64,000 bases of DNA from assembly GCA_900079765.1 (NCBI GenBank), contig LT599017.1, forward strand, positions 1,116,001 to 1,180,000. Reading direction: 5' to 3'. The notes beneath the pieces were generated by a model that did no database searches, was not told the origin of the DNA, and saw only the letters and a program-made list of their open reading frames with translations. The DNA comes from an uncultured Eubacteriales bacterium. GTDB taxonomy: Bacteria; Bacillota; Clostridia; Oscillospirales; Oscillospiraceae. Shown in pieces: positions 207-12,873 of this stretch (position 1 is its first letter; each line of letters opens with the position of its first letter). The translations under genes were made by a program, and so were the position numbers.

Positions 207-1178
207 ATGGCGCGTTCCGTACTGCGGCGGCTGGGGTATGCTCTGGCCGTGCTGCTGCTGGTGTCCCTGCTGGTGTTTTCCCTCATGGCGCTCCTCCCCG
301 GGGACTATGTCCGCGCCGCCCTGGCGGGCAGCCGGGTGTCCCCAGCCTTCGCCGAGGGGCTGCGCCGGGTGTATGGGCTTGACATTCCCGCCTGGCGGCG
401 GTATCTCCACTGGCTTTCCGCCGCTGTCCGGGGCGACCTGGGATATTCCTTCTCCCATGGGCGGGGCGTTCTCTCGGTGATCGCCTCGACCCTGCCGGTG
501 ACGGTGCTGGTGGGGGGGCTCTCCTTCGCGCTGGAGCTGCTGCTGGGCATCTGCCTGGGGTGTGCCTCCGCCTGGAGGGCGGGCCGAACGGTGGACAGGC
601 TTGGGGTGGCCTTTTCCCTGCTCACCGTGTCCTTGCCCCCCTTTGTGTTGGCTCTCTTTTTGCAAAAATGGCTGGTGCTGGACCTTCGGCTCTTTCCTCT
701 GTCGGGCCTCTCAACGCCCGGCACGCCGACGACGGTGCTTGACGTGCTGTCCCACCTGGTCCTCCCATGCCTTACTTTGGCCCTCCTGGAGGCGGGGCGG
801 CTCTCCCGTTATGTCCGCGCCTCCATGCTGGAGGTCCTCGCCTCCGAGTACATTCGCGCCGCGAGGGCAGGCGGTATCGATTTTTTTCATATTTTGGGGC
901 GTTACGCCCTGCGCAATGCCCTCCTGCCGGTGGTGACTTATCTGGGGCTCTCTCTGCCCGTCCTCTTTGGCGGGGCGCTGGTCATCGAGACGGTATTCTC
1001 CCTGCCCGGGCTGGGCTTGGCGGCCTATAACGCCGTTCTGACCCGGGATTACCCGCTGGTCATGGGTATCACCATGCTCCTGTGCCTTGTGACGGTGGCC
1101 GGCAATCTCCTGGCAGACCTTTTATACCGCGCCGCCGATCCCCGGGTGCGGGTGGGGAAGGGGGCGCAGTGGACTTGA
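207..1178 (+). CDS. DppB/OppB-type ABC permease
   Basis: This is a 323-residue inner-membrane permease with about six hydrophobic segments, the usual size of the DppB family. The N-terminus has the family pattern RRLGYALAVLLLVSLLVFSL followed by LPGDYVRAAL. The EAA loop that contacts the ATPase is visible near residue 215 as EYIRAARAGG, followed by ALRNALLPVV. A G-run (GGGGGGTTGG) just before the ATG at 207 serves as ribosome site. It forms one half of the channel with the next gene, whose start overlaps this stop codon, which indicates translational coupling. The substrate is probably a peptide or similar small solute, but the sequence does not fix it. Confidence 0.9.
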   Translation: MARSVLRRLGYALAVLLLVSLLVFSLMALLPGDYVRAALAGSRVSPAFAEGLRRVYGLDIPAWRRYLHWLSAAVRGDLGYSFSHGRGVLSVIASTLPVTVLVGGLSFALELLLGICLGCASAWRAGRTVDRLGVAFSLLTVSLPPFVLALFLQKWLVLDLRLFPLSGLSTPGTPTTVLDVLSHLVLPCLTLALLEAGRLSRYVRASMLEVLASEYIRAARAGGIDFFHILGRYALRNALLPVVTYLGLSLPVLFGGALVIETVFSLPGLGLAAYNAVLTRDYPLVMGITMLLCLVTVAGNLLADLLYRAADPRVRVGKGAQWT

Positions 1179-2032
1179 TGTGGATGAAAAAGCGCACGGC
1201 CCGCCACGCTGCTCTGCGGCGGAAGCGCTTGGGGCTCCTGCTGCTGGGGGCGCTGGTCCTCTTCGCCGCCGCAGGGCCGCTGCTCTCGCCCTTTTCCCTG
1301 CAGCGCACCGACCTGGCGGGCGCCTACCTGCCGCCCCTGACGGGCGGGCATCTGCTGGGCACCGACCTGGTGGGGCGGGACGTGCTGACTCTGCTTATGA
1401 GCGCCCTCGGCGTGTCCCTGACGGTGGCCCTGTGCGCGGTGACGGTGCAGGTGCTGCTGGGGGTGCTGCTGGGCCTCGCCTCGGGCTGCCTGGGCAGAGC
1501 CATAGACCGCTGCATCATGGCGGCGGTGGACACGGTGCTCAGCCTACCCACTCTGCTTGTACTGCTGATGGCCTCCGCCCTTTTGGGAAAGCTGGAGCTG
1601 GGGACGTTCGTCCGCACAGGGCTGGTGGCGGCGGTCATCGGACTGCTGTCCTGGCCAGCCTGTGCCCGGCTGGTGCGGGGGGAGACCCTGCGCCTGCGGG
1701 AGCAGGGCTTTATTACCGCCGCGGCTGCGGGCGGCGTGGCCCCGGGAAGAATTTTGGCCTGCTATCTGCTGCCGAATCTCATGCCCCAGGTGGCGGTCAC
1801 CGCAACACTGGGCATCGGGGACGCCATCATTGCTGAGTCTGTGCTCTCCTTTTTGGGGCTGGGGGTCAGTCCGCCGCTGGTCTCTCTTGGGGGCATGATC
1901 CGCTCTATGGCGCGGCTTGCCGACCTGCGCAGCCGGCCCTGGCTCTGGCTTGGGGCGGGGATCCTGGTGATTTTGTGCGTCGCAGCCTTCCATCTGATAG
2001 GCGTGGGACTGGAGGAGGGGAAGAGATGCTGA
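1178..2032 (+). CDS. DppC/OppC-type ABC permease
   Basis: This is the second membrane half of the importer, about 284 residues. After a basic start (MWMKKRTARH) it has the DppC-type N-terminal segment, then GTDLVGRDVLTLL, which is diagnostic for this permease class, and the EAA loop near AAAAGGVAPGR. I placed the start at ATG 1178, which overlaps the upstream TGA. A GTG at 1169 in the same frame is closer to the AAGGGGG ribosome site (1158-1164) and may be the true start. The end overlaps the ATPase start by seven bases, so the three genes form one tightly coupled operon. Confidence 0.88.
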   Translation: MWMKKRTARHAALRRKRLGLLLLGALVLFAAAGPLLSPFSLQRTDLAGAYLPPLTGGHLLGTDLVGRDVLTLLMSALGVSLTVALCAVTVQVLLGVLLGLASGCLGRAIDRCIMAAVDTVLSLPTLLVLLMASALLGKLELGTFVRTGLVAAVIGLLSWPACARLVRGETLRLREQGFITAAAAGGVAPGRILACYLLPNLMPQVAVTATLGIGDAIIAESVLSFLGLGVSPPLVSLGGMIRSMARLADLRSRPWLWLGAGILVILCVAAFHLIGVGLEEGKRC

Positions 2033-2979
2033 CGGTCACCGATTTATCCACCCGTTTCGGAGCCTATGCGGTCACGGAGGGGCTGAGTTTCACCGTGGAG
2101 CCGGGGTCCACCACCTGCCTGATCGGCGAATCGGGCTGCGGCAAGACGGTTACCTTACTCTCTTTGCTGGGCCTTTCAAGGGGGACGGTAAGCGGCAGCG
2201 TCGCCCTGGAGGGGCGCGAGCTGCTGGGTCTCTCTCCCAGGGCGTGGCGGCGGGTGCGGGGGCGGGAGATCTCCATGATCTTTCAGGAGCCGCAGAGCGC
2301 GCTCAACCCAGTGATGACGGTGGGGCGCGGGCTGTGTGAGCTCATCGCCGCTCACCGCCCCATGGGTGCCGCCCTCCTCCGGCGGGAGGCCGAGGGGCTG
2401 ATGGCCGCAGTGGGCCTCCCCGGGCCTTCGACCCTTTTTGACCGCTATCCCCATGAGCTCTCCGGCGGTATGCGCCAGCGGGTGCTCATTGCCGGGGCGC
2501 TGGCCCACAGCCCCAGGCTGGTGCTGGCCGACGAGCCCACCTCCGCCCTGGATATGACCATTCGGGCGCAGATCATCGACCTCTTCGGACGGCTGAAGCG
2601 GGAGCGCTCGTGCTCCTTCCTCATCGCCACCCACGACCTGGCCCTGGTGCGCCGACTGGCGGACCGGGTGCTGGTGATGTACGCCGGGGAGCTGGTGGAG
2701 CAGGGAGAGGCGGCCGAGGTGCTCTCCACTCCCCGCCACCCCTATACCCGTGCCCTGCTGGCCGCGGCCCGGGAGGAGGGGCCTCTCTCCCTGCTGGAGG
2801 GGGAGCCTCCGTCTCCAGCCGCCTTCCCGACCGGCTGCCGTTTTCACCCCCGCTGCCCCGACAGCTTGCCCGCATGCGCGCTGGCCCGCCCCGCGATGGA
2901 GGGTGGGAGTGACCATATGTGGCGCTGCCCCCTGAAAATTTCGGCAAGTGCCATATCCTGTCCAGAGAGCAAGTCATAA
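2026..2979 (+). CDS. DppD/OppD-type ABC ATPase
   Basis: This is a 317-residue cytoplasmic ATPase that powers the importer. Walker A GESGCGKT lies at residues 34-41, the signature LSGGMRQRV near 145, Walker B with VLADEPTSALD near 165-175, and the H-loop in ATHDLALV. The C-terminus carries the oligopeptide-transporter zinc-type motif GCRFHPRCPDSLPAC found in DppD/DppF. The start is ATG 2026, after GGAGGGGAAGAG, overlapping the permease stop. Importers of this class usually use two different ATPases. No DppF follows before the terminator at 3061, so this one may act as a homodimer or borrow a partner encoded elsewhere. Confidence 0.9.
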   Translation: MLTVTDLSTRFGAYAVTEGLSFTVEPGSTTCLIGESGCGKTVTLLSLLGLSRGTVSGSVALEGRELLGLSPRAWRRVRGREISMIFQEPQSALNPVMTVGRGLCELIAAHRPMGAALLRREAEGLMAAVGLPGPSTLFDRYPHELSGGMRQRVLIAGALAHSPRLVLADEPTSALDMTIRAQIIDLFGRLKRERSCSFLIATHDLALVRRLADRVLVMYAGELVEQGEAAEVLSTPRHPYTRALLAAAREEGPLSLLEGEPPSPAAFPTGCRFHPRCPDSLPACALARPAMEGGSDHMWRCPLKISASAISCPESKS

Positions 2980-3106: not shown

Positions 3107-3275
3107 CTATCTATCTGGGCTGCGGCTGTTGGGGTAATGGCCGAAGACGCAATTCCTTATAATAATCGAGCCGCGTCTATAAAGGAAATTTTACGTAAAC
3201 TCTACATTGCCAATATGGAAAGCGGTAAAAAAAACCTCTACACTAAACGTTAGTTTTAGCAAGGAGGTAACAAGT

Positions 3276-6200
3276 TTGAAGAACCTGAAACAGCGCCTGA
3301 TGGCAGGCGCACTGAGCTGTACCATGCTGCTGGGTATGCTCCCGGGCGGCGCCGCGGCGGAAGGGGAAATCCAGGCACCGGGACTTGGGGAGGTGTCCAT
3401 GGAGTGGAGCCGGGACATATACAACGGCGTCGCTCTGGACCATATCACCAGTGAAAACGAGTACGGGCTCCAGAAAAGCTATACGGTTACTTATAATCCC
3501 ACGGCCACCGAGATCAGGCCGGTCCTCAACTACGGCCCATATGTCATGGGCGGCGACATTATGTCGGACATGGTGGCCCAGGTGGAGGCCGACGGCTCCA
3601 AGGTGGTCTTTGCCATCAACGGCGACGCCTACGATACCAGCAACGGCGTCTCCAATGGCCTGATGATCAAAAACGGCGTCCTGATCTCCACATCGAATAG
3701 CAGCGGTACCCAGGCTGTGGGCTTTAAGGCCGATGGCACAGCCATCTATGGGCGTACCAGCTTGAACATTACCGCCACGCCGGACGGTGGAGCTCCCATC
3801 ACGGTGCTTCACGTGAACAAGGAGCGTAAGCTGGACACGGAGAACGTGTATCTGCTTACAGAGCAGTTTGCCAAGACCACCAGCTCCACCCAGCCCGGCG
3901 TGGAGGTGGTGCTCAACGTCACCACCCCCGGCTACCAGGGGCTGGTCGTCGGCGGGCAGCTTACCGCCACGGTGGCCAGCGTCAACCGGGTGGAGGCCAA
4001 CGTAAATAAGAACAACACTCCCATCGGTACGGGTCAGATCGTTTTGAGCGCCAACAGCGGCAGCAGCCGCTACGCCGCGCTGAACGCTCTTAGCGCCGGC
4101 CAGACCGTGACGGTGGACGTGCGCAACAACAACAGCGACGTGGACTGGAGTCAGGCCGTCCAGGCCCTGGGCATCTTTCACGTGCTGATGCAGGACGGCG
4201 TGCTCAACGAGGGTGCGTATGAGAATGCGGAAATCCACCCCCGCACCGTGCTGGGCATCAAGGCCGACGGCTCACTGGTACTGTTCCAGTGCGACGGCCG
4301 CCAGGCGGGCTGGGCCCTTGGCGTCAGCTTTAAGAACATTGTGGACTATCTGAAAAGCGAGGGCTGCGTCACCATCTTCAACTTCGACGGCGGCGGCAGC
4401 TCCACCATTACAGCCACTTTGCCCGGCGACGAGAACTCCACCATTCTCAACCGCCCCTCCGACGGCAACGAGCGGGCCAACTGCAACGCGCTGCTCTTTG
4501 TGGCCACCAGCCAGCCTGACACGAGCAGGGAGCTCCTCCACGTCTACCCAGACATCAAGGAGGGGTACGGCAACAAGGTCATGGTGCTGGAAAACGGCAA
4601 GCTGGGCCTGAAGGTGGGGACCACCGATGGCAACTACCACTATCAGGGGCTGGGCGATGCGTCCCTCAAGTATGCCACGGAGGGCGGTATCGGCTCCGTC
4701 TCCAAGGATGGTGTACTGACGGCGGCGGCGGGGACCCATGAGGGCAAGATCACGGTCTCCACCCAGGATGGCTCCGCCAGCGGCGAGCTGGAGGTCCAGG
4801 TGGTGGACTCCCTCACCAAGCTGACCGCCGACCGGTCTATCTTGTCGGTGGCCCCTAAGGCCACCACCCGGATGAGCTTTACCGCCGAGTATAACGGCAG
4901 CCCCGTGGTGCTTACCAGCGAGGCGCTCACCTTCCGGCTCTCCGACAGCTCCCTGGGTGCGATCGCCGCCGACGGCACCTTTACCGCCGCCGATACCCAG
5001 GGCACGGGTGAGCTGAAGATCTCCTACAAGGACTATACCCTCACTTTGCCGGTGGAGATCGGCAAACTGCCAGTACCCCTCAACGACTTTGAGGAGGACT
5101 TCACCGAGGCCGGGTGGAAGTGGCGCTACTTCAATGGCGCCGACGGAGGTTTGGGAGACCGGGGCGGTGACGCCAGGATGTCCATCAACTACGATGAGCG
5201 GTACGTTAAGAGCGGCGACGGCTCCCTGCGGGTGGACTATGACTTTGCCACCAAGCCCCTCACCGGTACAGTCACCTGTGAGACAGGCCCTATTGACTAC
5301 CTGTATCTGGAGGGGCAGCCCAAGGCCATCGGCTGCTGGATCTACGGTGACGGCAACGGGGCCTGGGTGCGCATCCAGCTAGCTCCCTCCGCCTATGCCG
5401 GCGACGTCTATGTAAACTGGGTGGGCTGGAGATACGTGGAGAACGCCATTCCCACTACCGCATCTTTCCCGTACCGCCTGGTGTACGGCGTGCGCGTCCT
5501 TGGCACCGCCAGCGTTGCCAACGGAAAGAAGGGCACCATCTATGTGGACGGTCTGCGGGCAGTGTACGACTTTAAAAATGACGACACGCTGGCCCCTGAG
5601 CTGATTCCCGGCACCGGCGTGACCCCGGCCGACGGCGCGGCGGACGTGGTGAATGAGCCCGACATCTCCATCTCCGTCCGGGACCCTCAGGTGGAGGGGC
5701 AGGCCTATACCGGCATCAATACCGAGCGGACCAAGCTGTGGATCAATGGCAAGGTCATGGAGCATAACGCGATTCAGCAGGAGGTGGCGGCCGACGGCTC
5801 GGTGAAGATCACCTTCCACCCAGGGGCGCTCACCGCCCTGCGCCCAGGCCTGAACAAAATCAAATACCGGGTGGAGGACAACGCGGGAAATAAGTTCTTT
5901 AAGGAGTGGTTCTTCACTGTGGCGGGCTATGCCGTCAATCTGGAGGAGACCTACCCCATAGACGAGAAGGCCGCCGCGGGCAGCACGTTCCACTATATCG
6001 TCAACGCCACCGATTATAAAAACTTTGAGGAATTTCAGTTTGAGCTGGGTTTCGACCCCAAGTATGTGACTCTGGTGGACGCCAAGTACGACAGCCGCCT
6101 CTCCGCTGCCGTGAGTGAGGTGGATGACACAAGCGGCTCCGTCCGGTACACCCTCACCGGCATGTCCGCCCTCCAGAAGGATAAGGACTCCCCCCTAGTG

Positions 6201-9200
6201 GACCTGACCTTCCAGGTGGGCAGGACAGCAGGCGGCCAGACCGGCGTCAAGGTCAAAAAGGCCGCAGTCCGACAGACCGGCGAGGTGGCCGGCACAGACC
6301 TGGTGCTGGACGGCTATGACCGGGAGGTCGCCCTCAAGTATACCCTCTCCTGGACTGGTTCCACCGTGGGAGGAGCCACCACACTCAAGCTGGCCGACAG
6401 CGTTGGCAGCCCAGTCCCGGGCTTAGGGTTTCACGTGACTCTGAACGATGAGCCTGTGGACTATAAAGAGGTGACCGGCTCCGACGGCACGGTGACCACC
6501 AGCCTCTTCGGCAGCTATCCCGTCGACACCCAATTCCAGGTCTGGGTGGAGGACGGGGACGGCGCGCTTAGCAATACCCAAAAGATTACCGTTTACGACA
6601 GCCTGGGTACCGCCGATCCCGCCAAGATGACCGTCACCACCGGCGAGGACCCCGCCACCGCCGTAGGCATCAGCTGGGAGACCAGCCTAGGAGTCAGCGA
6701 GGGAAGTCTGATCATCGGCAAGACCGCCGACTTGACCGGTGAGGACACCCGGATTCTGCCCGCCGCAAGCAGGGCCATTGATACCAGCATGTACGGCTAT
6801 GTCCGCAACTACCGGTCCTGGGGCGTCCGAGCCACCGAACTTGAGCCTGACACCACCTACTACTACCAGGCGGGCTATGAGGGCCATTACAGCCCCATCC
6901 GGAGCTTCACCACAGCCCCTGCCGACGGGGACCTGACCCTGGCCTTCTACGGCGACATTCAGGGTGCCTATGATCAGTTCCCCAATGCCATTGGAGCTCT
7001 GGAGGAGCTGTATCCCGACATCGACCTGAATCTCCAGGCCGGCGACGTATCCGACAACTCCCAGGCCTACAGTGACTGGGTCAGCGCCTACAGCGGCTTT
7101 GGAGACTACCTCAGCAACCGCATCTGGGCCCCCACCATAGGCAACCACGACTCCGACAACGATGCTCAGGCGTTTACTTCCTACTTCTACGGTCCGGACA
7201 ACGGCACCTATGATACCCCTCGCAACTACTGGTTCAGGGTGGGCGATATCCTCTTCTACAACCTGGATACGGAGGCCACCTATACCTATGACCCTGGTTT
7301 CGTCGGGCAGATCGCACATATGAAGGAGGTCTTCGCAGCCTCCGACGCCAGCTATAAGGTGGTGCTGATGCACCGCTCAGCGTATCCCATGAACTATAAT
7401 GAGGCCGACGTCCGCGCCCTGCACGCCGACTTTGAGGAGATGGGGGTCAGTCTGGTACTCTCCGGCCACGACCACATCTACCACCGCACCGAGATGTACG
7501 GCGGCGAGAAGGCCCCCGGCTCCGGCATCGCCTACATAGTGGGCGGCTGCTCCTCCGGGTCTAAGTTCTACGACGCCGACAGCAATGGGCGCCCCTGGCA
7601 GGGCGTGGTCTATGACGAAAATAACCCGGTATTCTCCGTGCTCAAGCTGCGGGACGGCGTCCTCACCATTGAGGCATACGCACTCAAAAACGGTGTGCGC
7701 ACGCTGGTGGATGAGTTCACCGTACTGAAACGCGGGGATGACGCCATGCTGGAGGCCGCCAAGTCCATCGTGGAGAAGGCGGAGGGGCTGGGTACCCTTG
7801 CCCAGGCCACCGCTGACAGCGCTGAGAAGGCCGCCGAGGCCCTGACCGCTGCCATCCTCGCTTTGCCCGGTTTCTCGGTTACAGGGGCCGGTGTCCAAGT
7901 CGAAATTGCCGACTTTAAGGAGGCCGTGGCCGGCGACGTGGAGAACTACGCCGGTACTGACGGCAGCTTTACCTATACCATTACCCTGTCCCTGAGCGGC
8001 AAGACCGCCGCTTTGGAGCCCAAGGTGGGCGCTGTTACCGCCACGGCCTATGTGCCGGCGGAGCTGAGCGGCGGCGTGTCCATCGTGGACGAGGCCCGCT
8101 ACGGGGAGACCCTTACCGCCGTAACCACGGGCCTGACGCCCGCAGGCGCAAATCTGGCGTACCAGTGGATCCAGGTAAATAGCGGGAAGACCGTTGGCAG
8201 CGAGAGCAGTTACACCGTCATGGCGGAAGACATCGGCAGCATCCTCACCCTTACCGTCACCGGCACGAAGGGCTATGAGGGCAGCTTTACCGCTGAGACC
8301 GGGGTGATTGGTAAGGCGCTACGGACCATGCCCGAGCATGTGGGCAAGACCGATGTGAGCGAGGAGGGCGGTACGGGTGCCCTCACCGGCCTGGATGCCT
8401 CCATGGAGTACAAGGCCGCGTCTGACGAGGGCTGGACTGCCGTAGAGGGGGAGACCGTGGAAGGGCTGGCCCCCGGCAAATACCTGGTGCGCTATGGCGA
8501 GACCGAGACCCAGGAGCCCAGCGGCGCCATCGCCGTGACCATTCTGGGCTATGGAGCACCCCCGCGAAACGAGACCCCCATCGCCCAGTTTGATGCCGCT
8601 GCCATGATCCTCTCAAACGTATCCGAGGGAATGGCCTACTCTCTGGACGGCGGCGCGACCTGGACCTCCGCGGAGGGGCATGAGGTGACGCTCTCCGAGG
8701 AGGAAGTGACCACCACGTACGGCATTCGGGTCTATGCCCCCGGCGTGGAGGGGGAGAGCAGCGATTCAGAGGAACAGGTTATCGCTCTGACCCGGGCGGC
8801 CGCACCCGCGGGCGTGGGCCGTATCGGCCAGACTGCCGACGCATCCGGCGCCATCACAGGCGTGGACCGCGCTATGGAGTATAAGGCAAAAAATGACGAG
8901 ACGTGGATCGCAGTCAGCGAGAGTGCCGACGTTGTGGAGGTAGAGCCCGGCGTCTATCTGGTGCGGGTGGCCGGCTCCGGCACGACCCTGGCCAGCCAGG
9001 CGGTGACCGTTGCCGTGGCCGCCTATGTGGCGCCGGTTGCCACCGGTGTGACCCTGGACAGGACCAGCCTGAACCTCTACCACAACGCAAGCCCCCGCAC
9101 CGCCACCCTGACCGCCGCCGTTCTCCCTGAGGGGGCGGACCAGACGGTGACCTGGAGCTCCAGCGACGAGAGCGTGGCCACGGTGGAAAACGGAGAGGTC

Positions 9201-10202
9201 CGGGCCGTGGGGGCCGGAACCGCCACGATCACGGCTACCTCCGCCGACGGCGGTTTTGCCGCTCAGTGCAGCGTTCAGGTCAGCACCTACACGTCTCGCG
9301 ACGATTCCGGCAGCTCCAACTCCGGGCAGAAGCCGACTGAGCCCAACGTGACGGTGACGCCGTCCGGCATCAGGATACAGACCACTACCGCGTCTGACGG
9401 AGGCGTCGAAGTCGCGGTGGAGGTGCCCGCCAAGGCAGTGGAGAACGGCAAGGTCCTTTTGCCCATCGAGAGCCAGAGCGTCGCCGCCAGAGACGGCAAA
9501 GCCAGGCTGCAGATCAGCCTGCCCGCTGCGGAGGGATCGATACGGGTGGAAATCCCGGTGCGCGGCGTCACGCCCGGCACTGTGGCCGTGCTGGTGAGCG
9601 CTGACGGGACGGAGGAGATACTCAAGAGCACCGTCGCTACCGAGAACGGGTTGTCCGTGGCTCTGAGCGGTACGGCCTCCATCAAGATCGTAGATAACAC
9701 GAAGTCTTTTAACGACGTGGACAGCGCCAACTGGAGCGCCGAGGCTGTAAACTTCGTCACCAGCAGAGAGCTCTTCAACGGTACGGGCGCAGACAAGTTC
9801 AGCCCTGATATGGAGATGAGCCGCGCCATGCTGATGACGGTCCTCTACCGCTTTGACGGCGGCAAGGATTCCGGCAATGGCGGGACCTGGTATGAGTCGG
9901 CCCGGACCTGGGCGGTGGCGCAGGGCATTTCCGACGGGACCAATCCCGACGGCAGCATTACCCGTGAGCAGCTCGCAGCCATCCTGTACCGATACGCGGG
10001 CAGCCCCGCCGTTAACGGCGGAACGGCCGCCTTTGGGGACAGCGGCCGGATTTCCGGTTTTGCTCAGGATGCCATGGCATGGGCGGTGTCTAGCGGCCTC
10101 ATCACCGGCAGACCCGGCAATCTGCTGGCTCCTCAGGACGGCGCGACACGCGCCGAGGTCTCTGCCATCCTGATGCAGTTTGCAGCGCTGTACGCAAATT
10201 AA
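3276..10202 (+). CDS. Giant S-layer protein: phosphodiester glycosidase + metallophosphatase + SLH
   Basis: This exported surface protein has 2308 residues. The start is TTG 3276, seven bases after a perfect AAGGAGGT (3261-3268); an upstream in-frame ATG at 3207 has no such site. A signal peptide covers about residues 1-27 (ending GGAAAEGE). Visible modules in order are: phosphodiester glycosidase/NAGPA-like domain (about 60-430, with FNFDGGGSST near 368); bacterial Ig-like stretches; a jelly-roll carbohydrate-binding-like region (about 600-768); a cohesin-like domain (about 888-1005); a purple-acid-phosphatase fibronectin-like domain (about 1111-1213); a metallophosphatase with FYGDIQ, GNHDSD (about 1289) and GHDHIYH (about 1397); two copies of a 70-residue module around MEYKA (about 1710 and 1867); a Big2 domain (about 1919-2003); and three SLH repeats (about 2144-2308) that bind wall polymer. 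It probably removes a sugar from a phosphodiester and then the phosphate, at the cell surface. The substrate is unknown. Confidence 0.85.
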   Translation: MKNLKQRLMAGALSCTMLLGMLPGGAAAEGEIQAPGLGEVSMEWSRDIYNGVALDHITSENEYGLQKSYTVTYNPTATEIRPVLNYGPYVMGGDIMSDMVAQVEADGSKVVFAINGDAYDTSNGVSNGLMIKNGVLISTSNSSGTQAVGFKADGTAIYGRTSLNITATPDGGAPITVLHVNKERKLDTENVYLLTEQFAKTTSSTQPGVEVVLNVTTPGYQGLVVGGQLTATVASVNRVEANVNKNNTPIGTGQIVLSANSGSSRYAALNALSAGQTVTVDVRNNNSDVDWSQAVQALGIFHVLMQDGVLNEGAYENAEIHPRTVLGIKADGSLVLFQCDGRQAGWALGVSFKNIVDYLKSEGCVTIFNFDGGGSSTITATLPGDENSTILNRPSDGNERANCNALLFVATSQPDTSRELLHVYPDIKEGYGNKVMVLENGKLGLKVGTTDGNYHYQGLGDASLKYATEGGIGSVSKDGVLTAAAGTHEGKITVSTQDGSASGELEVQVVDSLTKLTADRSILSVAPKATTRMSFTAEYNGSPVVLTSEALTFRLSDSSLGAIAADGTFTAADTQGTGELKISYKDYTLTLPVEIGKLPVPLNDFEEDFTEAGWKWRYFNGADGGLGDRGGDARMSINYDERYVKSGDGSLRVDYDFATKPLTGTVTCETGPIDYLYLEGQPKAIGCWIYGDGNGAWVRIQLAPSAYAGDVYVNWVGWRYVENAIPTTASFPYRLVYGVRVLGTASVANGKKGTIYVDGLRAVYDFKNDDTLAPELIPGTGVTPADGAADVVNEPDISISVRDPQVEGQAYTGINTERTKLWINGKVMEHNAIQQEVAADGSVKITFHPGALTALRPGLNKIKYRVEDNAGNKFFKEWFFTVAGYAVNLEETYPIDEKAAAGSTFHYIVNATDYKNFEEFQFELGFDPKYVTLVDAKYDSRLSAAVSEVDDTSGSVRYTLTGMSALQKDKDSPLVDLTFQVGRTAGGQTGVKVKKAAVRQTGEVAGTDLVLDGYDREVALKYTLSWTGSTVGGATTLKLADSVGSPVPGLGFHVTLNDEPVDYKEVTGSDGTVTTSLFGSYPVDTQFQVWVEDGDGALSNTQKITVYDSLGTADPAKMTVTTGEDPATAVGISWETSLGVSEGSLIIGKTADLTGEDTRILPAASRAIDTSMYGYVRNYRSWGVRATELEPDTTYYYQAGYEGHYSPIRSFTTAPADGDLTLAFYGDIQGAYDQFPNAIGALEELYPDIDLNLQAGDVSDNSQAYSDWVSAYSGFGDYLSNRIWAPTIGNHDSDNDAQAFTSYFYGPDNGTYDTPRNYWFRVGDILFYNLDTEATYTYDPGFVGQIAHMKEVFAASDASYKVVLMHRSAYPMNYNEADVRALHADFEEMGVSLVLSGHDHIYHRTEMYGGEKAPGSGIAYIVGGCSSGSKFYDADSNGRPWQGVVYDENNPVFSVLKLRDGVLTIEAYALKNGVRTLVDEFTVLKRGDDAMLEAAKSIVEKAEGLGTLAQATADSAEKAAEALTAAILALPGFSVTGAGVQVEIADFKEAVAGDVENYAGTDGSFTYTITLSLSGKTAALEPKVGAVTATAYVPAELSGGVSIVDEARYGETLTAVTTGLTPAGANLAYQWIQVNSGKTVGSESSYTVMAEDIGSILTLTVTGTKGYEGSFTAETGVIGKALRTMPEHVGKTDVSEEGGTGALTGLDASMEYKAASDEGWTAVEGETVEGLAPGKYLVRYGETETQEPSGAIAVTILGYGAPPRNETPIAQFDAAAMILSNVSEGMAYSLDGGATWTSAEGHEVTLSEEEVTTTYGIRVYAPGVEGESSDSEEQVIALTRAAAPAGVGRIGQTADASGAITGVDRAMEYKAKNDETWIAVSESADVVEVEPGVYLVRVAGSGTTLASQAVTVAVAAYVAPVATGVTLDRTSLNLYHNASPRTATLTAAVLPEGADQTVTWSSSDESVATVENGEVRAVGAGTATITATSADGGFAAQCSVQVSTYTSRDDSGSSNSGQKPTEPNVTVTPSGIRIQTTTASDGGVEVAVEVPAKAVENGKVLLPIESQSVAARDGKARLQISLPAAEGSIRVEIPVRGVTPGTVAVLVSADGTEEILKSTVATENGLSVALSGTASIKIVDNTKSFNDVDSANWSAEAVNFVTSRELFNGTGADKFSPDMEMSRAMLMTVLYRFDGGKDSGNGGTWYESARTWAVAQGISDGTNPDGSITREQLAAILYRYAGSPAVNGGTAAFGDSGRISGFAQDAMAWAVSSGLITGRPGNLLAPQDGATRAEVSAILMQFAALYAN

Positions 10203-10354: not shown

Positions 10355-12442
10355 TTAGAAAATGGAGAAAGCGAGGAACAGCGACGACATCAGCGAGGCT
10401 ACCAGAGAAACTACCGTGATCTGCGTATTGATCGAAGGACCGGCGGTATCCTTAAACGGATCGCCCACCGTATCGCCTACCACGGCTGCCTTATGCGCCG
10501 CGCTGCCTTTTCCGCCGTTTCCGCCGGCCTCAACATACTTTTTCGCATTGTCCCAAAGACCGCCTGAGTTGCTCATAAATAGCGCAAGCAGCAGGCCGCT
10601 GACAATATTGCCGGCCAAATAGCCGCCGGTGGCCTCCACACCACCAATAAATCCTACCAGCAGCGTTACGGCAATGCTGATCACTCCCGCGGGAATCAGC
10701 TCGCGCAGAGCGCCGTGCGTCGCGATATCGATGCACTTGTCGTACTCCGGGACAACGCCCGGTTTGCCCTCTCTCAGGCCGACAATTTCACGGAACTGGC
10801 GGTGAATTTCAGCCACCATACGCTGAGCGTTGCGGTTGACTCCCAAAATCAGCAATGCCGAGAAAACAGCGGGTACCGCCGCTCCGATGAGCATCCCAAA
10901 GAACACCTTCGGATTGATGATATCGAATCCGGTCAGCACGATCTTGCCGGCGGCCTCGTTTACCTCGCTCATAAAAGCGCCCAGCAGTGAAATGATGGTG
11001 AGCCCCGCGGCGGCAATCGCAAAGCCCTTGGTGACCGCCTTGACCGTGTTTCCCGCGCTGTCGAGCGAGTCGGTGATTTTCAGAGCTTCCTCACCCAGAT
11101 CGCCCATCTCAACCAGCCCGCGCGCATTGTCCGCGATCGGTCCGTAAGCGTCGTTGGAGATAATCATGCCTACGATGGAGAGCATGCCTACCGCAGCCAT
11201 GGAAATACCAAACATTCCTGCCATGGGGTTCTGTGGAGCGATCGGCGCGCAGATGTTGTAGGACAAAAGCGCCGCAACCGCGATTCCCACCATGGCTGGG
11301 AGTACGCTCAAAAATCCGTACGAAATGCCTGAAAGGATGGTAAAGGCCGGCCCGGATTCCGAGGCCTCGGCTACGTTGCGTACAGGCTTTTGGGTATCAT
11401 TGGTGAAGTAATCGCTGGTAATACCAATGATAACGCCTACAAACAGGCCGATTGCGGCGGCGCCCCAGATGCGCCAGTCAAACCGGAAAAGTGCCGTGGC
11501 GCCGGCTGTTAAAACGGTGAAGACTGCCGTTGTGATATAAGTACTCATATTCAGCGCATGCGTGGGATCGCCCTTTTTCCCCATGCGGGCCGCCATAACG
11601 CCGATGATGGAGGAGAGCAGGCCCAGCGCCGCATAACAGAAGACCATCGTGGTGTAGTTGACGCCTACCTGCTTTCCAAGCGTAATCGCCATCACCAATG
11701 CCGCGGCCATGGAGGCCACGTTGGAGTCAAACAGGTCAGCGCCCATACCGGCCACGTCGCCTACGTTGTCGCCTACGTTATCCGCAATCACAGCAGGGTT
11801 GCGGGGGTCGTCCTCGGGAATTCCCAGCTCAACCTTACCCACCAGGTCGGCGCTGATGTCGGCTGTCTTGGTGAAGATACCGCCGCCCGCCTTGGCAAAG
11901 AGCGCAAGAGAGCTGGCGCCAAAGCTAAAGCCCAGAAGCGTGGTTGTGTCCTGTGTCAGCAGGAAGACAAGGGACACGCCCAGAAGTGAGCTTCCAACCA
12001 CGGCCATACCCATGACCGCGCCGCCGCGAAACGCCGAGAGAAACGAAAGGCTCAGCCCCTTCTGGGCCGACTCGGCCGTCTTGACGTTGGCCTGAGTGGC
12101 CACCTGGATTCCGATCTTACCGGCAATCGCCGAGAACACGGTACCTGCGATGTACGCTAACGACATGGAAATGTTATGCCACGCCCCGTATCCCGACCAG
12201 ATCGGCTGTGGAAGGAAAACGAAAATCAGTACAGCCACAATACCGCAAAACTTGGCCAGCACGCTGTATTCCTTGCGCAAAAAGGCGTTGGCCCCTTTGC
12301 GGATATACCCGCCGACCTCGGCCACTCTCGGGTTTTGGGACGGTTGGCGCCCAATCCACCGATAAAGCCAGGCTGCAAACGCGAACGCCAGGAGAGAGAC
12401 CGCGATGGAAACACACAAGAACAAAACCAGATCGCTACCCAT
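10355..12442 (-). CDS. hppA: Membrane-bound ion-pumping pyrophosphatase
   Basis: This integral membrane pump of about 695 residues hydrolyses pyrophosphate and exports H+ or Na+. Family signatures include DNVGDNVGDVAGMGADLFDS (about 218-237), the acidic EDDPRNPAVIADN just before it, and GDTVGDPFKDTAGPSIN near the C-terminus. An ATG at 12460 opens the frame, but the GGAGG ribosome site lies inside those first codons, so ATG 12442 is the better start. The selectivity segment reads GNTVKAVTKG, with Lys at the position (about 467) that is Ala in K+-dependent pumps. By established family rules this points to a K+-independent and therefore probably proton-pumping enzyme, although annotation pipelines usually name such genes K+-stimulated sodium pumps. 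Confidence 0.95.
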   Translation of the reverse strand: MGSDLVLFLCVSIAVSLLAFAFAAWLYRWIGRQPSQNPRVAEVGGYIRKGANAFLRKEYSVLAKFCGIVAVLIFVFLPQPIWSGYGAWHNISMSLAYIAGTVFSAIAGKIGIQVATQANVKTAESAQKGLSLSFLSAFRGGAVMGMAVVGSSLLGVSLVFLLTQDTTTLLGFSFGASSLALFAKAGGGIFTKTADISADLVGKVELGIPEDDPRNPAVIADNVGDNVGDVAGMGADLFDSNVASMAAALVMAITLGKQVGVNYTTMVFCYAALGLLSSIIGVMAARMGKKGDPTHALNMSTYITTAVFTVLTAGATALFRFDWRIWGAAAIGLFVGVIIGITSDYFTNDTQKPVRNVAEASESGPAFTILSGISYGFLSVLPAMVGIAVAALLSYNICAPIAPQNPMAGMFGISMAAVGMLSIVGMIISNDAYGPIADNARGLVEMGDLGEEALKITDSLDSAGNTVKAVTKGFAIAAAGLTIISLLGAFMSEVNEAAGKIVLTGFDIINPKVFFGMLIGAAVPAVFSALLILGVNRNAQRMVAEIHRQFREIVGLREGKPGVVPEYDKCIDIATHGALRELIPAGVISIAVTLLVGFIGGVEATGGYLAGNIVSGLLLALFMSNSGGLWDNAKKYVEAGGNGGKGSAAHKAAVVGDTVGDPFKDTAGPSINTQITVVSLVASLMSSLFLAFSIF

Positions 12443-12873
12443 AATGCCCAGAACCTCCATTACTTAGTTTTTTTGATTACGTGCTCTTTCGGTAGCCGCT
12501 GCGTGTGAAGAAACAGGCGGCTGTGGTACGGCGCTTGCCAGCCTGTCCACTTGGGGAGCACTCTGCGTCAGGACTTTTTCTCCGCTCAGCCACTATCGAA
12601 CGGCTCTGGCTGCTCCGGTCGATAGGGTTCCAAGATATAGGTGCACCATTTTTCCCCAATTATATTTTATGAGCGGCTTTCGTAGTATAGACCTCAAAAA
12701 AGACAAGCGCCTTTACAAAAGGCAACACCGTACAATACCGGGTTATAAAAGCCGAAGGTTCGAACACAGGATACCTCTTTCCGGCGGCGTTCAGGGCGGC
12801 GCGCTACACCTGCCTCTGCCGCGCCGCATAATATGGAGAAGAAAACTGCCAAGAGCAGAAAGGAGAGATACTT
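12443..12873 (-). promoter_or_regulatory. Intergenic region with structured leader of the pyrophosphatase gene
   Basis: About 430 bases separate two divergent starts and I see no gene in them. Read on the minus strand as the pyrophosphatase leader, there are two local hairpins: CTATCGA pairs with TCGATAG (12593-12625, plus three further G-C pairs inside), and AGGCGGC pairs with GCCAGCCT with one bulge (12515-12544). A further GTCC/GGAC pairing links 12546 to about 12575. This could be a regulatory RNA, but I cannot match it to a known riboswitch class by eye. On the plus strand the region ends with AAAGGAGAG before the DUF2935 gene. Confidence 0.35.

Follow-up and report, generated by a model that had tools for sequence, protein, structure and literature searches.

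The window, by which we mean the entire 64-kb stretch of DNA analyzed here, belongs to a 3.67-Mb genome in a single contig that has five loci with NAGPA (phosphodiester glycosidase) domains, one of which encodes a 1,033-amino-acid NAGPA-SLH protein. At positions 3276 to 10202 of the plus strand (stop codon included), the list of open reading frames gives a frame of 2,308 amino acids with a TTG start codon at 3276, preceded by a ribosome-binding site that we rate as good (AAGGAGGT, 3261 to 3268, plus strand); this frame is a real gene. Upstream (207 to 2979, plus strand) lie open reading frames that, read by eye, resemble parts of an ABC transporter of the oligopeptide/nickel type, namely two permeases and an ATPase. 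A convergent frame of 701 amino acids (10355 to 12460, minus strand) looks, also by eye, like a membrane-bound pyrophosphatase, and was not seen as a conserved neighbor of fused genes of the kind described here.

The features of the 2,308-residue protein, all on the plus strand, begin with a putative signal peptide (3276 to 3359, residues 1 to 28), read by eye from the sequence with cleavage near AAA-EG. A NAGPA domain follows at 3378 to 4505 (residues 35 to 410), assigned from Pfam, alignments, and an AlphaFold fold match; its Pfam match (PF09992, E = 2.9e-27) scores 96.4 bits against a curated cutoff of 25, with the best stretch at residues 246 to 408 and a second stretch N-terminal to it. 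Next come two Ig-like beta domains (4506 to 5057, about residues 411 to 594), a beta-jelly-roll module (5061 to 5573, residues 596 to 766) with fold matches to FlaA1 (Z = 15.4) and CBM11 (Z = 13.1), and a further Ig-like domain (5655 to 5921, about residues 794 to 882), seen in the AlphaFold model and in Big_13 matches of relatives that fall below the cutoff. Because the alignment rows miss some of the Ig-like domains, these assignments were made from predicted secondary structure alone. The phosphatase half consists of a Pur_ac_phosph_N (FN3-like) domain at 6618 to 6914 (residues 1115 to 1213; PF16656, E = 8.3e-10, with a fold match) and a calcineurin-like phosphoesterase domain at 6936 to 7745 (residues 1221 to 1490), assigned from Pfam (Metallophos, PF00149, residues 1221 to 1402, E = 1.4e-11), an alignment of 78 proteins, and a fold match. 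A Big_2 domain (Pfam; 9099 to 9275, residues 1942 to 2000) precedes the C-terminal SLH anchor (9690 to 10190, residues 2139 to 2305; Pfam E = 8.4e-17, 61.3 bits against a cutoff of 20.8).

The initial annotation of this DNA named three SLH repeats and a cohesin-like domain. The three SLH repeats are seen by eye and only two stretches exceed the Pfam threshold, but residues 2143 to 2299 align over the SLH region of Bacillus anthracis Sap, so three repeats are a fair reading. The cohesin-like domain (5928 to 6281, about residues 885 to 1002) has no Pfam Cohesin match in the window protein itself, but the aligned region of one relative (L075) does match Cohesin (5.7e-7); the Foldseek match to 2w1n has an E value of 1.5e-8 but an rmsd of 13.6.

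The annotation had also suggested structure prediction and domain search as a check on the two enzyme domains, and both halves showed homology to the named families and kept the conserved residues. By sequence, the first half is nearest to two solved structures, the DUF2233 protein 3ohg and animal NAGPA, and the second, as a weak match, to wheat purple acid phytase. AlphaFold models were made of residues 35 to 790 (mean pLDDT, 86.7) and 775 to 1500 (79.5). Compared with NAGPA and DUF2233 structures, the modeled NAGPA half (residues 35 to 410) gave Z scores of 21 to 33, with BPSS2145 at 33.5, BACOVA_00430 at 26.7, and animal NAGPA at 21 to 22. Its key residues are N115, D117, R323-T324, D340-G-R, D371GGGS375, S395, and R400, and in alignments the domain shares the RT and DGGGS motifs with animal NAGPA, the window version of the latter reading NFDGGGS. 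The modeled phosphatase half (residues 1112 to 1493) matched kidney-bean purple acid phosphatase (6hwr) with a Z score of 38.9 over 370 residues (rmsd, 3.1) and PhoD with a Z score of 26.1. The domain reading of the annotation thus holds, apart from one correction to the phosphatase.

The metal motifs read earlier in the phosphatase (FYGDIQ, GNHDSD, and GHDHIYH) are present, as are all five calcineurin-like metal motifs (D, GD, GNH, H, and GHxH), with ligands at D1227, D1257, N1290, H1291, H1366, H1398, and H1400. At two positions that hold His or Tyr in other families, this protein has Q1229 and D1260; the residue two after the first Asp is Gln in 77 of 78 relatives. The Tyr of GDxxY is the defining ligand of purple acid phosphatases and makes their site purple. 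Here this motif reads GDVSD, with Asp1260 in place of the Tyr and Asp in 76 of 78 relatives, so the domain is PAP-like and not purple; a purple acid phosphatase proper is ruled out, and the earlier label "PAP-type" does not hold in its strict sense. On sequence and model, the domain is a calcineurin-like phosphoesterase of the PAP fold with a predicted activity.

When 84,980 species genomes were scanned with the core, at least 526 relatives matched it, some over one half only, and the best 80 of these were kept. The genera among these best 80 include Paenibacillus, Bacillus, Neobacillus, Sporosarcina, Levilactobacillus, Massilioclostridium, and uncultured Clostridia. In whole-genome searches, NAGPA surface proteins of about 1,000 amino acids that lack the phosphatase were numerous, as were PAP-like proteins that lack NAGPA; proteins with both were fewer. 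In nine relatives, Pfam confirmed the order NAGPA, PAP_N, Metallophos, followed by one of three kinds of C terminus: SLH, FIVAR repeats (with an LPXTG-like end in L057), or none. Across 78 fused proteins, the same core is joined to SLH in 35 and to an LPXTG-like anchor in 5, and the rest have no recognized anchor.

The active sites are nearly invariant in these 78 proteins, which come from many Bacillota genera. NAGPA residues N115, D117, D340, D371 to S375, S395, and R400 are kept in 76 to 77 of them, R323 and T324 in 70, and the phosphoesterase ligands in 77 to 78; misalignment of one sequence may account for the lone deviating row at most catalytic columns. The NAGPA and phosphatase trees agree (Mantel r = 0.93, with 0 of 2,000 permutations as high), sharing 32 of 45 and 51 supported splits, with 5 in conflict. 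The retention of both sites and the congruence of the trees thus indicate that the fusion arose once or only rarely and was then retained; the NAGPA and phosphatase domains are inherited together, mostly vertically. This co-inheritance favors a shared job for the two active sites but falls short of proving a sequential reaction.

A 904-amino-acid protein (L061:2902-5613) has the same jelly-roll region and a PAP-like phosphatase and no NAGPA; it is a possible half-ancestor, and its architecture means that the fusion could stem from two existing families joined at a shared module. Three NAGPA-only proteins (L189, L190, and L191) share about 67% identity with the NAGPA half of a Bacillaceae fused protein, and both the phosphatase half and the Pho box described below are absent from their loci, a pattern that possibly reflects one event. 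Another Bacillaceae locus (L188, genome G885) holds a fused gene with two internal stop codons (one TGA and one TAA), apparently a decaying copy. In one genome that also carries a fused gene, a separate frame of 506 amino acids (G893:C11:65528-66847) encodes the phosphatase half only, at 69% identity.

Across genera we found no conserved neighbors of the fused gene; its neighbors are lineage specific, so none that is conserved ties it to a phosphate or glycan pathway, and in the loci compared it does not lie inside a wall-polymer cluster. We also looked at other large NAGPA proteins, of about 1,450 to 1,950 amino acids (L064 to L072, in genomes G295, G210, G230, G046, G284, G120, G184, and G364). 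In L064 to L068 and L072, the adjoining genes encode glycosyltransferases, a polysaccharide flippase, or a TupA-like ATP-grasp protein, which points to cell surface glycans as the substrate of these large proteins. A search for a Stealth-type GlcNAc-1-phosphotransferase found none in the window's genome and was equally silent in control genomes, so this absence carries no weight.

Since no neighbor was conserved, promoters were examined instead. PHO boxes, including those of Bacillus subtilis, are known to be built from 11-nt direct repeats (PMC4415409). As a PhoP-like pattern, we scored pairs of TTHAYA (TT[ACT]A[CT]A) spaced by exactly 11 or 22 bp. In the discovery set, 11-bp pairs lie upstream of 14 of 77 fused genes and 5 of 222 intergenic controls (P = 8e-6), and 22-bp pairs upstream of 15 of 77 and 5 of 222 (P = 2e-6); most Paenibacillus and clostridial members of this set have no box. 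The pattern was fixed after discovery and then applied to 22 further fused genes from Bacillaceae (the family of G770), where an 11-bp pair was found in 10, a 22-bp pair in 9, and either in 13. Dinucleotide shuffles gave 11-bp pairs in 1.4% and 22-bp pairs in 1.2%, and other spacings were mostly empty in the 22 genes. The fused genes counted are related orthologues, so these numbers overstate their independence. The excess is smaller against intergenic flank open reading frames of the same loci (13 of 22 versus 13 of 68, P = 6e-4), which may share boxes with the fused genes. Within the same Bacillaceae genomes, TTHAYA pairs precede 10 of 12 PstS genes, 0 of 18 genes for TupA-like (tungstate transporter) proteins, and 0 of 12 NAGPA-only genes. 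This split between PstS and TupA-like proteins was made by sequence after the counts had been seen: a first control with the best PF12849 matches had given boxes in 2 of 20, and most of these matches turned out to be tungstate proteins of the TupA-like kind.

The window gene itself has no TTHAYA pair upstream. It does have a Pho-box-like direct repeat with an 11-bp period, TTTACG-N5-TCTACA (3190 to 3206, plus strand), 69 bp before the start codon, found by the pattern scan and by a scan with a pstS promoter, and a -10-like hexamer TACACT followed by AAAC (3239 to 3244, plus strand), found by direct sequence comparison. The pstS gene of the window's genome (TIGR02136, above cutoff) has the promoter repeats TTTACG-CATAC-TTTACA, and TTTACA-type repeats occur at pstS in several order-level relatives. 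We scanned the genome's own 59-bp pstS promoter, chosen for comparison after the boxes of the relatives had been seen, without gaps along both strands of the window (about 128,000 positions). The best match starts at 3190 (34 of 59, next best 30 of 59), and none of 200 shuffled queries scored as high. When the query is cut to its 40-bp repeat part, position 3190 is again best (25) but is equaled by 9 of 200 shuffles; part of the full score therefore comes from the -10 region. The same scan in the 20-kb locus of the orthologue in genome G206 ranked the orthologous site first (30 of 59). The spacing from the first repeat to the -10 hexamer is 49 bp in the window gene, in pstS, and in the G206 orthologue, the latter two with TATACT. 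The window gene has two clear repeats, which are degenerate, and its genome's pstS has more. With one mismatch allowed, TTTACR-N5-TTTACA occurs 31 times versus 34 for the reversed control in one genome and 27 versus 22 in another, with no clear excess; the case for Pho control of the window gene, which we consider moderate, therefore comes from the whole promoter layout.

NAGPA cleaves a sugar-1-phosphodiester on its sugar side, and the phosphomonoester that remains is a phosphatase substrate. With a probability of roughly 55%, we propose that the window protein is a Pho-controlled, SLH-anchored, secreted enzyme that acquires phosphorus in two steps, glycosidase then phosphatase; both activities, their order, the substrate, and the induction are predicted elements of this model. 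Low phosphate would probably induce the gene via PhoP-type boxes. The NAGPA domain would cleave a sugar-1-phosphate diester, freeing the sugar, and the PAP-like di-metal phosphoesterase of the same chain would next free inorganic phosphate from the phosphomonoester left behind. The jelly-roll and cohesin-like modules may hold a glycan or a partner protein, and the surface anchor would retain products at the cell. Together with a promoter of the phosphate starvation type and a surface anchor, this chemistry is most simply read as a way to scavenge phosphate from phosphoglycans, either foreign or the cell's own. The initial guess of such a role gains support from the PhoP boxes enriched in Bacillaceae relatives and from the pstS-like promoter of the window gene. 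A bolder version, which we offer tentatively and would not bet on, is a Pho-regulated two-stroke machine that cycles on glycosyl-1-phosphate polymers. On such a polymer the steps would have to alternate, removing the end sugar, the exposed phosphate, and then the next sugar, and this need would explain the lasting fusion of the domains.

Other explanations share some of this evidence. It is possible, at less than even odds, that the protein turns over the envelope and, like PhoD and GlpQ in B. subtilis, acts on anionic polymers of its own wall (teichoic or secondary wall polymer linkage units) and not on foreign glycans: SLH or LPXTG anchoring holds it on that wall, PhoD is its nearest match among bacterial structures whose role is known, and other large NAGPA genes sit in clusters with glycosyltransferases and a flippase. 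However, the fused gene itself lies outside wall-polymer clusters, and its CBM-like and cohesin-like modules equally suggest outside targets. We are similarly doubtful that the domains act on separate substrates and were joined merely for display on the same surface, without a sequential reaction. Each domain is also found alone, NAGPA in the SLH proteins of about 1,000 amino acids of many relatives and the phosphoesterase in PAP-like proteins without NAGPA, and the phosphoesterase may, like PhoD, cleave diesters; yet the pair has been inherited together for long, with congruent trees, while its anchors changed, and the three close NAGPA-only relatives that lack the phosphatase half also lack the Pho box. 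A role in signaling, in which the phosphoesterase frees a signal or nutrient during sporulation or development as proposed for B. subtilis ShfP, seems improbable to us: its domain makeup places the phosphoesterase with ShfP in a published radiation of calcineurin-like surface domains (PMC11488536), but in the relatives examined it is Pho boxes that are conspicuous. That the protein is a surface adhesin with decayed enzyme domains, as its very long chain of many Ig-like, CBM-like, and SLH modules might suggest, was already disfavored and is hardly credible given the near invariance of both active sites.

To our knowledge, surface proteins of Bacillota commonly carry NAGPA domains, few of which have an assigned substrate. 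For such a phosphodiester glycosidase of unassigned role, a conserved partner enzyme and a promoter of the phosphate starvation type provide a testable hypothesis, that phosphate is freed from sugar-phosphate polymers in the gut, in soil, or in the cell's own wall. If true, the two-stroke version of the model would place a route from phosphoglycans beside the PhoD/GlpQ route on teichoic acids. A literature search, mostly of journals outside subscription, found no paper linking NAGPA proteins with the Pho regulon or phosphate starvation.

Among known systems, animal NAGPA (the mannose-6-phosphate uncovering enzyme) and the DUF2233 structures 3ohg and 6ozd have the same fold and the RT, DG, and DGGGS motifs; unlike animal NAGPA, the window protein is bacterial, surface anchored, and fused to a phosphatase. 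Plant purple acid phosphatases and phytases share its two-domain fold of an FN3-like and a catalytic domain (Z = 33 to 39) and the seven metal-ligand positions but not Asp1260, which stands in place of their Tyr. In B. subtilis, PhoD and GlpQ under PhoPR free phosphate from wall teichoic acid (PMC6232261), a precedent for secreted, Pho-controlled phosphodiesterases; PhoD has the fold of the window phosphatase (Z = 26), whereas these are separate enzymes without a glycosidase domain. Bacillota proteins that pair NAGPA with TelC-type enzymes (eLife 2025, PMC12419801) are likewise large surface proteins in which NAGPA is half of a two-enzyme core, but their partner is a lipocone (prok-TelC) enzyme proposed to act in conflict between bacteria. 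Surface phosphoesterases with calcineurin-like domains also form the ShfP radiation (Sci Adv 2024, eadq0791, PMC11488536), in which the partner domains include FN3/Pur_ac_phosph_N and SLH and, in some members, NAGPA, a combination also found in the window protein, which by domain makeup is of the ShfP type (a secreted calcineurin-like domain with FN3 and adhesion domains). The combination is thus not undescribed, as had been suggested. In the parts of that article covered here, the NAGPA fusions appear as domain architectures, with no two-step or Pho-controlled role put forward for them, and the protein tested is B. subtilis ShfP, which lacks NAGPA. The architecture is therefore already on record, and what the present analysis adds to it is the conservation of both sites, the congruence of the domain trees, the enrichment of PhoP boxes, and the pstS-like promoter match.
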